Below, piece after piece: positions 23,305 to 28,264 of a stretch of DNA of 64,000 bases. Made by a program: the position numbers and the translations under genes. The notes under the pieces are model-generated. The model was not told the DNA's origin. It did not search any database and saw nothing but the letters and a program-made list of their open reading frames with translations. Source of the DNA: Bombella favorum (lineage in GTDB: Bacteria > Pseudomonadota > Alphaproteobacteria > Acetobacterales > Acetobacteraceae); the NCBI RefSeq assembly GCF_014048475.1, contig NZ_NWUS01000001.1:744001-808000 (forward strand), written 5' to 3'. Each line of letters opens with the position of its first letter. The stretch's first letter is position 1.

Positions 23305-23788
23305 AGCGATTCGGACTTCCAGACTCCTAATTGTATTATTTTGCTCCATAAAAATGGGAGTAAAGCGGTTTTATTTCTTTGCGTAAAAAATTATTAAGCG
23401 GCTCCCACTCCGTAAAAAAAGAAAAGTTATTCCGATAAGTGTGTTCGATAATTTGCTCTAATGTGGCGGCATGCTTATTTTAATTTTTTCTTTATTTAGT
23501 AAAACGCTTTTCACGTTCCTGTGATATTCATCTAAAATTGAATATACATAGATTGATACACACAAAGGTATAAGTATTCATCTTAATTATTGAAGCCTAC
23601 CCCCCTTATTTTCTTTCTCACAGCAAAAGACGACATTAAATTATCATCTACTCAACACAAAAATGCCCCATACGAGGAGCAGAAGTAGCTCCTGTTCTAG
23701 TTGTATGGATTACAAGAAAAACAATCAAAGGTTGCATCCTATAAAAAATATCTTCCATACTACAACCAGTCCAAGGGGAGTTGAAATT
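23305..23788. other. AT-rich intergenic region upstream of ctrA
   Basis: These 484 bases hold no convincing gene. Noted here: two GANTC sites (23308-23312, 23322-23326), three related motifs of the type AAGCGRYT near 23303, 23362 and 23395, a CtrA-like half-site pair TTAA-N7-TTTA at 23480-23494, and a weak promoter-like pair TTGATA (23553) and TATTCA (23575). Confidence 0.5.
23480..23494 (+). promoter_or_regulatory. Candidate CtrA box in the ctrA leader
   Basis: TTAA, seven bases and TTTA match the TTAA-N7-TTAA CtrA consensus at seven of eight positions. In Caulobacter CtrA regulates its own promoters. The AT-rich setting raises the chance of coincidence. Confidence 0.35.
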
Positions 23789-24538
23789 ATGCGTATTCTC
23801 ATCGCTGATACCGACAGCGTTGCGGTAAACTATCTGGTGAAGGTGTTGGAAAAATCTTCTTATGCGGTCGACCATGTCAGAACCGCTGATGAAGCTCTCA
23901 ACATGTTCAAGCACTACGATTATGATCTATTCATAACCGAGCTGAACTTGGCTGACCTACCAGGGGAAGAATTGATCCGCCAGCTTCGGCGCTCCCGCAT
24001 CGCAACGCCTGTCATGGTTTTGTCTGCCCGGATGGATTCCTCCACCAAGGTTGCTGCCTTCTCCGCTGGTGCTGATGACTATGTGACAAAGCCCTTCGAT
24101 ATAAACGAGGCACAGGCCCGTATTCAGGCCCTAACCCGCCGTGCCTATGGCATCTCCGAGCCACGCCTGCGTGTCGGCCCGCTAGAGCTGGACCTGGAGA
24201 GCCGGATGGTCAGCGTCAATGGTCACTTCCTGCACCTGACCAGCAAAGAATATTCCATTCTGGAGCTGCTCCTTCTGCGTAAGGGCGCTGTCCTTACCAA
24301 GGATATGTTCCTGAATCACCTCTATGGCGGCATTGATGAGCCCGAGATGAAGATCATCGACGTGTTCATCTGCAAGCTGCGCCGTAAGCTCCAGCGTTTT
24401 GGGGCCGAGCATATGATCACTACCGTCTGGGGCCGCGGCTACATTCTGCAAGACCCAGCCGCGATATCCAACGGCGCAAACCATGTTGCCCCGCAGCCCT
24501 TTTCTGACGGGACTCCCCCCATGCGTCAGGCTGGCTAA
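23789..24538 (+). CDS. ctrA: CtrA-type response regulator with Glu at the phosphorylation site
   Basis: This 249-residue OmpR/PhoB-class regulator has an N-terminal receiver and a C-terminal winged helix. The DNA-binding half is almost identical in pattern to Caulobacter CtrA: LTSKEYSILELLLLRKG, then FLNHLYGGIDEPEMKIIDVF and VWGRGYIL. In the receiver, alignment without gaps puts Glu at residue 51 (codon GAG at 23939-23941, context FITELNL) where CtrA has the phosphorylated Asp. One of the acidic-pocket residues (position 8) is Thr, while the switch Lys (TKPF) is kept. D51E is the classic phosphate-mimic in Caulobacter. The ATG at 23789 follows AAGGGGAG; the frame is open upstream to 23663 but with unlikely sequence. 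Confidence 0.92.
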   Translation: MRILIADTDSVAVNYLVKVLEKSSYAVDHVRTADEALNMFKHYDYDLFITELNLADLPGEELIRQLRRSRIATPVMVLSARMDSSTKVAAFSAGADDYVTKPFDINEAQARIQALTRRAYGISEPRLRVGPLELDLESRMVSVNGHFLHLTSKEYSILELLLLRKGAVLTKDMFLNHLYGGIDEPEMKIIDVFICKLRRKLQRFGAEHMITTVWGRGYILQDPAAISNGANHVAPQPFSDGTPPMRQAG

Positions 24539-24661: not shown

Positions 24662-26032
24662 TTAGCTAACTGCCAGCTGCTGGATGTGAGCACTGACCCG
24701 CTCCACCACATCCGCTACTAGTGCCTCATCCCGGGCTTCCACCATCACACGGATCAAAGGTTCCGTACCACTCGCCCGCAAAACGAGACGCCCCTTCCCA
24801 GCAAGCTTCTCTTCCGCCCAGCGGACAATCTCTCCCAGAGCTGGGTTCTGCATGGGGTTTGTGCCCTTATAGGGCACATTCTTCAAGGTCTGCGGATATG
24901 GCGTAAAAAGGTGGCAGAGCTCACTTGCAGGTCTGCCAGAGTCTACCAACGCTGCCAGAACCTGAAGAGCGGCTAAAAGACCATCCCCCGTTGTCGCATG
25001 GTCGGACAACACCATGTGGCCAGACTGTTCCCCGCCCAAGTTTCCGCCAGTCTGGCGCATACGCTCTACAACGTAACGATCACCAACTGCTGTGCGATGC
25101 AGGCTCAGCCCCTGTGTTTTCAGATACTCTTCCAGCCCGATATTGGACATAACAGTCGCCACAATTTCGGTACCATTCAGCCATCCCATGCGCTTCCAAA
25201 GCGTAGCGATAAGGGCCAGTATCTGGTCACCATCCACCAACTCGCCACGCTCATTAGCAAACAGGACACGGTCCGCATCACCATCAAGCGCAATGCCGCA
25301 ATCAGCCTTATTGGCACGCACCGCCTCGCAAAGAGCCTCTGGGTGGGTGGAGCCAACACCATCATTGATGTTCAGACCATCCGGCGAAGCCCCGATGGTG
25401 ATGACCTCTGCCCCAAGCTCCCACAAGGCGGCAGGTGCCACACGGTAGGCAGAACCATGCGCACAATCTAGGACAATCTTCAGACCATCCAAACGCAACC
25501 CACGGGGAAAGGAGGATTTGACACTCTCAATATACCGCCCGGCAGCGTCATTCAGGCGAGAGGCCCGCCCTATGGCCGCAGGAGAGGCTAGCTGGCCGCT
25601 CAGGTCTTCTGCCATGAGGGCCTCAATCTCTTTCTCCACCGCATCGGAGAGCTTAAACCCATCCGGACCAAACAGCTTGATCCCATTATCCGTAAATGGA
25701 TTATGGGATGCTGAGATCATAACCCCCAGATCGGCCCTCAGAGAACGTGTAAGGAAAGCAACAGCCGGAGTTGGCAGTGGGCCCAGCAACACCACATCCA
25801 CACCAGCGGACAGAAACCCCGAGACCAGAGCACACTCGATCATATAGCCAGAAAGGCGTGTATCCTTACCAAGTACAACCGTATGGCGGTGCTGTCTCCC
25901 TGTCTCGCCCTGCCGGCAGAAATAAAGTCCCGCCGCCTGCCCCAACTTCTGAGCAATCTCAACCGTCATGGGTGCCGTATTGGCCGTACCACGGATACCG
26001 TCAGTGCCGAAAAACATCCGCCTGTCTGCCAT
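24662..26032 (-). CDS. glmM: Phosphoglucosamine mutase
   Basis: It converts glucosamine 6-phosphate to glucosamine 1-phosphate for UDP-GlcNAc, peptidoglycan and LPS. The 456 residues show [12 protein letters not shown] near 9, the phosphoserine loop [17 protein letters not shown] near 100, metal loop [11 protein letters not shown] near 245, the sugar loop [12 protein letters not shown] near 330 and phosphate loop [14 protein letters not shown] near 415. The ATG at 26032 follows GAGGGGA; an upstream in-frame start at 26098 encodes unlikely residues. ftsH-glmM order is common in proteobacteria. Confidence 0.96.
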
Positions 26033-26167
26033 GACTTCCCCTCTGTTTTTTCTGTCTCTCTGCCTGCTTTCTACCGGTCGCCGACAGGACAGGCCCACCT
26101 GTTACACCATGAAACGCCCCCTGAAATGCCAGCCATTCCCTTGATACGCAAGCATTTCGTAAACAAA

Positions 26168-26225: not shown

Positions 26226-28115
<1,890 letters not shown>

Positions 28116-28264
28116 CTCTACAAACACCTCACAAATCGGGGCACAGGGGCAGAGCCCACACCACACTTAGTCCCTTCAAGATAGGTATTTCTGGCGGCGT
28201 TCCCACCCCCATCGGGGCAAAATGGATGAAAAACCCTCATCTCGCCGCATTTATCAAGCTAGTT

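Follow-up and report, generated by a model that had tools for sequence, protein, structure and literature searches.

Here we identified a CtrA orthologue in Bombella favorum in which the phosphoacceptor Asp of the receiver domain is replaced by Glu (E51). The gene lies in a 64,000-nucleotide stretch of DNA that was analysed at its full length (the window), part of a 1.97-Mb genome (G000). CtrA is a textbook phospho-regulated cell-cycle switch. The most apt description of the window protein, and of CtrA in these acetic acid bacteria, is a CtrA orthologue carrying a pseudo-receiver. As a whole, the evidence is best explained by CtrA having been kept as a phosphorylation-independent DNA-binding regulator once the CckA-ChpT relay was dismantled, a reading we hold to be probable. 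The features of the gene are as follows, with residue counts from 36 ChpT-positive relatives or from 23 E51-type sequences (21 E51 and two A51), the two sets used in the entropy comparison below.

23789 to 24538, forward strand: ctrA orthologue, 249 amino acids, E51 (NCBIfam match, alignment with relatives).
23789 to 24142, forward strand: receiver domain, residues 1-118, with a degraded phosphorylation site (PF00072, 83.5 bits; predicted structure m99174d81f48c).
23810 to 23812, forward strand: codon 8, Thr at the site of the Mg2+-binding Asp (Asp in 36/36 ChpT-positive relatives).
23828 to 23830, forward strand: codon 14, Asn (Arg in 33/36 ChpT-positive relatives).
23939 to 23941, forward strand: codon 51, GAG, encoding Glu at the site of the phosphoacceptor Asp (sequence, alignment).
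23951 to 23953, forward strand: codon 55, Ala (Pro in 36/36 ChpT-positive relatives).
24023 to 24025, forward strand: codon 79, Ser, the switch Ser/Thr, kept (Ser/Thr in 23/23 E51-type sequences).
24080 to 24082, forward strand: codon 98, Tyr, the switch aromatic, kept (Tyr in 23/23 E51-type sequences).
24089 to 24091, forward strand: codon 101, Lys, kept (Lys/Arg in 22/23 E51-type sequences).
24161 to 24460, forward strand: winged-helix DNA-binding domain (PF00486), spanning residues 125-224 and highly conserved.
24467 to 24535, forward strand: low-confidence C-terminal tail, last residues RQAG (alignment, predicted structure).

The top NCBIfam model for the product is CtrA (NF045991) with 288 bits versus 162 for the next family, a score that lies below the curated cut-off of 350. 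Pfam places a receiver and an OmpR-type DNA-binding domain in the 249-residue product, both above cut-off, and the latter carries the invariant columns HLYGG and KIIDVF. In an alignment with 18 relatives the window protein is free of gaps up to its C-terminal tail, a region that varies from genus to genus in CtrA, so that the CtrA homologue and gap-free alignment of the preliminary description are borne out to that point. There is an earlier in-frame ATG at 23663; the alignment with relatives begins at 23789. The best CtrA matches in other genera of the family have 50-65% identity among the matches listed and as little as 38% in a search at 1e-40, and by this measure g101, the genus of G208, comes closest to the window's genus. 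No second canonical CtrA was found in G000, where the next-closest paralogues have at most 38% identity; the three scanned whole score better with CztR/CopR or PhoB models than with the CtrA model, and two more were scanned over the receiver stretch only.

Residues 7-9 of the window protein are Asp-Thr-Asp, compared to Glu-Asp-Asp in canonical relatives. Both the phosphoacceptor Asp51 and the acidic Mg2+ pocket are thus changed (E51, T8), as had been read from the sequence alone. The predicted structure (mean pLDDT 83) has a normal (beta-alpha)5 receiver and a winged helix; it supports the fold only, the active state not being reliably inferable from such a model. Together, structure, Pfam and alignment indicate an atypical receiver, with the fold kept and the phosphotransfer residues missing. 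The identical GAG codon is found in two sister genomes whose CtrA proteins are 97% and 92% identical to that of the window, which rules out a sequencing error or a strain oddity at codon 51.

Whether the substitution was lineage-wide or specific to this strain had been left open, and residue 51 across genus, family and class indicates that it is lineage-wide. The window's genus is split between E51 (7 of 11 genomes) and A51 (the remaining 4). Across 98 family loci, residue 51 is Asp in 50, Glu in 36, Ala in 5, and His, Asn and Arg in one each, with 4 unreadable. The 98 were chosen from 254 family genomes (249 and 5 more of the genus) to represent each genus roughly once, with extra members close to the window, and the proportions are therefore not free of bias. 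G002, with A51, is counted separately; ctrA in that genome is frameshifted after approximately codon 92 (L019/L020, G002:C12 at about 342754-343505), reflecting an assembly error or a pseudogene. Outside the genus, A51 also occurs in G075 and G011 and H51 in G177, and G055 and G069 have D51 with a broken pocket. Species names are available for few genera since the naming scan covered the best 80 of 591 stretches, with D51 in 74, E51 in 5 (Acetobacter musti, Novacetimonas maltaceti, Saccharibacter floricola, Komagataeibacter xylinus and Acetobacter cibinongensis) and N51 in Acetobacter garciniae.

In a class sample of one genome per family, 69 were read of the 74 genomes outside the family with a match at 1e-52. 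Of these, 67 have D51, which argues against E51 being a chance finding, and two have E51 (G341 and G342). The CtrA proteins of these two (L329 and L304, respectively) have a broken pocket, neither genome has a ChpT match, and both belong to other families and are 1.1-1.2 Mb in size; they appear to be independent parallels to the change within the family.

Several family members depart further. The CtrA receivers of G033 (L120), G077 (L121) and G105 (L125) are degraded far past residue 51, with S79 and K101 also replaced; CtrA is the sole NCBIfam match at 1e-30 for the G033 and G077 proteins. At a threshold of 1e-55, 47 family genomes lacked a CtrA match, most of them outside the 98-genome sample; 34 genomes were searched again at 1e-40, and 10 of these had no match at that threshold either. 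Five genomes (G039, G125, G086, G109 and G126) have neither a CtrA match at 1e-40 nor a ChpT match, and because both are unmatched, these genomes may have lost ctrA itself or carry it in unrecognisable form.

We then compared the site with the relay that phosphorylates it. Using the ChpT profile PF10090 on 249 family genomes, 157 matched at E ≤ 1e-3 and 150 exceeded the curated cut-off; among 14 named controls only Caulobacter matched. No match at E ≤ 1e-3 was found in G000, where divergence of the family limits sensitivity. In the genus, none of 6 genomes matched in the first search and none of 5 others exceeded the cut-off; ChpT is divergent and the profile could miss it. For a table of 95 family genomes, presence was a match at E ≤ 1e-4 and an intact site was E/D7, D8, D51 and K101. 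Matches between 1e-4 and 1e-3 (14 genomes, and also G010) were scored as absent, and G071, G095 and G105 were left out for gaps at the site. An intact site accompanies ChpT in 38 genomes and occurs without it in 4; a degraded site occurs with ChpT in one genome and without it in 52 (Fisher p = 8e-21, kinship ignored). The four intact sites without ChpT are those of G048 (87% complete), G050 (90% complete), G023 (99% complete) and G040, which has Lys at 9. The single degraded site with ChpT, in G014, is based on a CtrA match of 38% identity. Outside the family ChpT is present in 65/74 genomes; it is absent in both E51 genomes and in 7/67 D51 genomes.

CckA follows a similar pattern. The CckA profile NF046026 at 1e-60 matched none of 8 genus genomes and 64 of 80 family genomes, with 0/80 over the curated cut-off, and many of the family matches are other hybrid kinases. 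We generated a kinase tree from the best match of each of 10 ChpT-less genomes and from 20 D51 genomes, with G013 and G026 represented not by the best match but by one as long as CckA. L444 (G013) was dropped since it did not pass the motif filter for kinases, and L438 is likewise no kinase stretch. G055, labelled E51 in this tree, is actually D51 and ChpT-less. Nineteen of the 20 matches from D51 genomes join 14 reference matches of other families (split SH-aLRT 100; one of the 14 exceeds the NF046026 cut-off), while the best matches of all 10 ChpT-less genomes fall outside this reference group. Judged by this tree, the best CckA-like matches of these 10 genomes are not CckA. Among the 12 receiver matches of G000 at E ≤ 0.001, none is a receiver C-terminal to a kinase domain; a 47-kb contig encodes two kinases with the receiver in front. 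The single-domain receivers among these matches are all within the chemotaxis (che) cluster, which leaves no candidate for DivK or CpdR among them. With the acceptor and D8 gone, ChpT undetected and no CckA, DivK or CpdR candidate in G000, the earlier suggestion that this CtrA has left phosphorelay control is well supported. More broadly, the phosphate-adding enzymes are no longer detectable in the many acetic acid bacteria that have lost the phosphate site.

A diverged ChpT or another kinase might still control CtrA, through another residue or through a kept D51. Ala51 and Glu51 are unable to accept an aspartyl phosphate, which with the prevailing loss of D8 stands against this, as does the lack of a detectable CckA by profile or kinase tree. 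Weak PF10090 matches do occur in three E51 genomes (G010, G019 and G199), the G010 match being below cut-off and in a 507-residue frame. ChpT is indeed described as a small, divergent protein in the part of PMC8116508 available to us, and substitute phosphotransferases are proposed in excerpts of Brilli et al. (PMC2877005). Overall, we consider such residual control very improbable.

The two domains of CtrA have evolved differently. In 13 pairs of close relatives omega is 0-0.17 for the receiver and 0-0.03 for the DNA-binding domain, values that are rough because many dS are near or above 1. The receiver is under purifying selection. From ChpT-positive to E51-type genomes, mean entropy rises by 0.51 bits in the receiver and 0.02 bits in the DNA-binding domain, in keeping with the very conserved DNA-binding half noted earlier. 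The most relaxed receiver positions include 14, 55, 34, 80, 15 and 8, and positions 140 and 211 of the DNA-binding domain are also among the most relaxed. At position 14, Arg in nearly all ChpT-positive genomes, no residue exceeds 3/23 in the E51-type rows; the Pro at 55 falls to 5/23 and the Asp at 8 to 1/23. Position 14 is in helix alpha1, the usual docking face of phosphodonors; PDB entry 4qpj is a complex of a phosphotransferase and the CtrA receiver. Alongside the switch residues S/T79, Y98 and K/R101, D56 is kept in 23/23 E51-type rows.

Among 56 ChpT-less genomes, a lost D51 is replaced by Glu in 36/45 cases (two of the 36 being far-degraded receivers), compared to 1/49 for a lost D8. 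This bias, with the switch residues kept, fits a receiver that lacks phosphotransfer and may still need a negative side chain at 51. Drift would offer another account, in which position 51 became free once ChpT was gone and Asp to Glu, a common conservative change, simply accumulated, with the receiver a dimerisation scaffold in which charge is irrelevant. It draws on the A51, N51 (A. garciniae), H51 and D51 seen in ChpT-less relatives, on the larger number of changes at residue 51 than in ChpT on the species tree (13 versus 4, below), and on atypical regulators that dimerise without phosphorylation, as covered in the available sections of a 2025 review (PMC12632262). The excess of Glu at 51 over 8 speaks against it, although the rows are related and so do not provide an independent test, and so does the retention of S/T79, Y98 and K/R101. 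We regard drift as unlikely.

Purifying selection on the receiver could also mean that CtrA is still regulated there, as a pseudo-receiver that responds to a ligand or to another protein. Precedents for pseudo-receivers controlled directly or through partners, e.g., Rem by MirA, are given in the same portion of PMC12632262. The window receiver, however, has no insertion or new domain, and there is no evident partner gene beside ctrA, the neighbours on one side being glmM- and ftsH-like; we consider this switch improbable.

Returning to a phosphorylation-independent CtrA, we propose the following course. In the ancestry of this group of acetic acid bacteria the CckA-ChpT relay would have been lost, and the CtrA receiver would have given up phosphotransfer chemistry, with D8 and P55 decaying and D51 being replaced, mostly by Glu. 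The receiver would have been retained under purifying selection together with the phosphoryl-sensing residues S/T79, Y98 and K/R101, and as these are kept, Glu51 plausibly holds it in an active-like, dimer-competent state. CtrA would then act without phosphorylation, probably permanently DNA-binding, with its output set by the amount made or degraded and possibly autoregulated at TTAA-N6/7-TTAA boxes. That CtrA is regulated by abundance or DNA binding, as first suggested, would follow from such a protein. A natural phosphate mimic and a constitutively active CtrA are plausible on the sequence evidence. The mimic cannot be essential throughout, since relatives carry Ala, Asn, His or Arg, or Asp with a broken pocket; the far-degraded G033 and G077 have lost the three supposed switch residues too. 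In the bolder version, the whole clade would have fixed a phosphomimetic Glu that makes CtrA permanently "on" while dismantling CckA-ChpT, so that these bacteria cycle without CtrA phosphorylation and two small genomes arrived independently at the same arrangement. We regard this version as possible but somewhat doubtful.

To place these changes on a phylogeny we used FtsH, whose gene is a neighbour of ctrA in the window. Both neighbours listed here are named from motifs in their translations.

24662 to 26098, reverse strand: glmM-like neighbour (translated open reading frame).
26226 to 28166, reverse strand: ftsH-like neighbour (translated open reading frame; species-tree marker).

Six named loci have E51 or N51, and in five of them both glmM- and ftsH-like motifs lie no more than approximately 6 kb away from ctrA; at the remaining locus, that of A. 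musti, glmM does. Neither motif was seen in the 9 other named ctrA loci viewed, two of them short. In several ChpT-positive genomes chpT itself is about 6 kb from ctrA (e.g., G013, G021, G116, G135, G174 and G212).

The FtsH tree, a stand-in for a species tree, covers 70 genomes and was built by a quick method with SH-aLRT support; it contains several long branches. ChpT-positive D51 genomes group in one part of it. Most E51 genera are in the other part, surrounding the window, and descent is presumed to be vertical. Between the two parts are the ChpT-less lineages G062, G065, G011, G080, G023, G049 and G220, and three further ChpT-less genomes (G033, G077 and G105) are placed among ChpT-positive ones. 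By parsimony, ChpT requires 4 changes, site integrity 6 and residue 51 13, the site counts leaving out G105 and G109, where the site was not read. Of four supported independent pairs on the tree, two differ in both traits (sign test p = 0.5), a test underpowered because phylogenetically independent pairs are too few. A. musti and G019 have E51 with an intact Glu-Asp-Asp pocket, which suggests that D51E is able to precede the loss of D8. In G062, G065, G080 and G069, conversely, D51 survives beside a damaged pocket, which points to more than one order of decay.

We also considered how ctrA expression might be set. An element upstream of the gene is shared within the genus, and is possibly a promoter or operator.

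23700 to 23737, forward strand: upstream element GTTGT...ACAATC...GGTTGCAT, its three blocks identical in 9/9 genus upstream regions aligned.

TTAA-N6/7-TTAA boxes occur in 11 of 32 ctrA upstream regions, compared to a shuffled mean of 2.8, and none of 200 shuffles had as many. N6 was pooled with N7 post hoc, once N6 sites had been observed, and the 32 regions are related. The exact TTAA-N7-TTAA box is found in 5 regions versus 1.5 in shuffles (2/200 with as many), and four control spacings in 1 to 3 regions versus means of 1.4 to 1.5. Since the boxes are enriched upstream of ctrA, autoregulation is likely in part of the clade. No such box lies within 300 bases upstream of the window ctrA. Genome-wide in G000, full CtrA sites are not enriched (10, versus 11 for a control pattern), and by eye the genes adjoining the 10 sites share no clear theme.

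Compared to the CckA-ChpT-CtrA system of Caulobacter and other Alphaproteobacteria, the window CtrA agrees in its best NCBIfam model, its gap-free alignment and its near-invariant DNA-binding half. It differs in lacking the acceptor Asp, D8 and a detectable ChpT or CckA, and in its sub-threshold model score. Engineered CtrA D51E has the identical residue in the identical place and is treated as a phosphomimetic allele in Caulobacter (excerpts of PMC12186491) and Rhodobacter capsulatus (excerpts of PMC6363796). The window E51 is instead natural and clade-wide, and it is combined with the loss of D8, P55 and the relay.

The proposed phosphorylation-independent function also resembles that of the atypical OmpR-type regulators ChxR, HP1043 and CosR. 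Fold matches of the window model include a CosR structure and 2hqr, titled as a phosphorylation-independent orphan regulator, which we take to be HP1043. For ChxR, dimerisation, DNA binding and activation all proceed without phosphorylation, according to the abstract. These are other regulators, whereas in CtrA the ancestral phosphorylated form, the relay and intermediates are all seen in sister lineages. Pseudo-receivers with Glu at the D position are also known among bacterial aspartate-less receivers, plant PRRs and Rim15p of Ascomycota, and according to sections of PMC12632262 no residue is more common than Glu there in aspartate-less receivers. The window CtrA shares this Glu; unlike these, it is a core cell-cycle regulator, and the spread of the change can be compared with the loss of the cognate phosphotransferase.

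The absence of ChpT was already known: Brilli et al. 2010 (PMC2877005, in excerpts) noted that some Rhodospirillales have CtrA but no ChpT, and proposed that other phosphotransferases stand in for it. They also gave cckA as present; our kinase tree offers no support for this in the 10 ChpT-less genomes it includes. In Tomasch et al. 2021 (PMC8116508), the available text reports ctrA, gcrA and ccrM in 72-82% of Rhodospirillales genomes and chpT, cckA and divL in 27-36%, with a caution by the authors that these genes are hard to identify. The string "D51" does not occur in the text of PMC2877005, and CtrA is not mentioned in the excerpts of PMC4395418. Going by titles and the first lines of abstracts, we found no report in the open-licence literature of the residue-51 change or of its link to the loss of ChpT.

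The receiver sequence suggests a simpler answer than substitute phosphotransferases, namely that this CtrA may need no phosphate now. The D51, E51, A51, N51 and H51 relatives, some with an intact pocket, would form a natural series from phospho-dependence to independence, and cultured strains with names exist for several of the species. How bacterial pseudo-receivers are activated is called a mystery in the accessible part of the 2025 review (PMC12632262).

G000 also encodes a seventh OmpR-type protein, an orphan in a flagellar cluster whose receiver is below the Pfam cut-off (L170:1936-2865, reverse strand; G000:C2 at about 255400-256400). It adjoins genes that we take to be fliM- and fliL-like. 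This protein is reminiscent of the flagellar atypical regulators Rem and FtcR, the former of which is mentioned in excerpts of PMC12632262.
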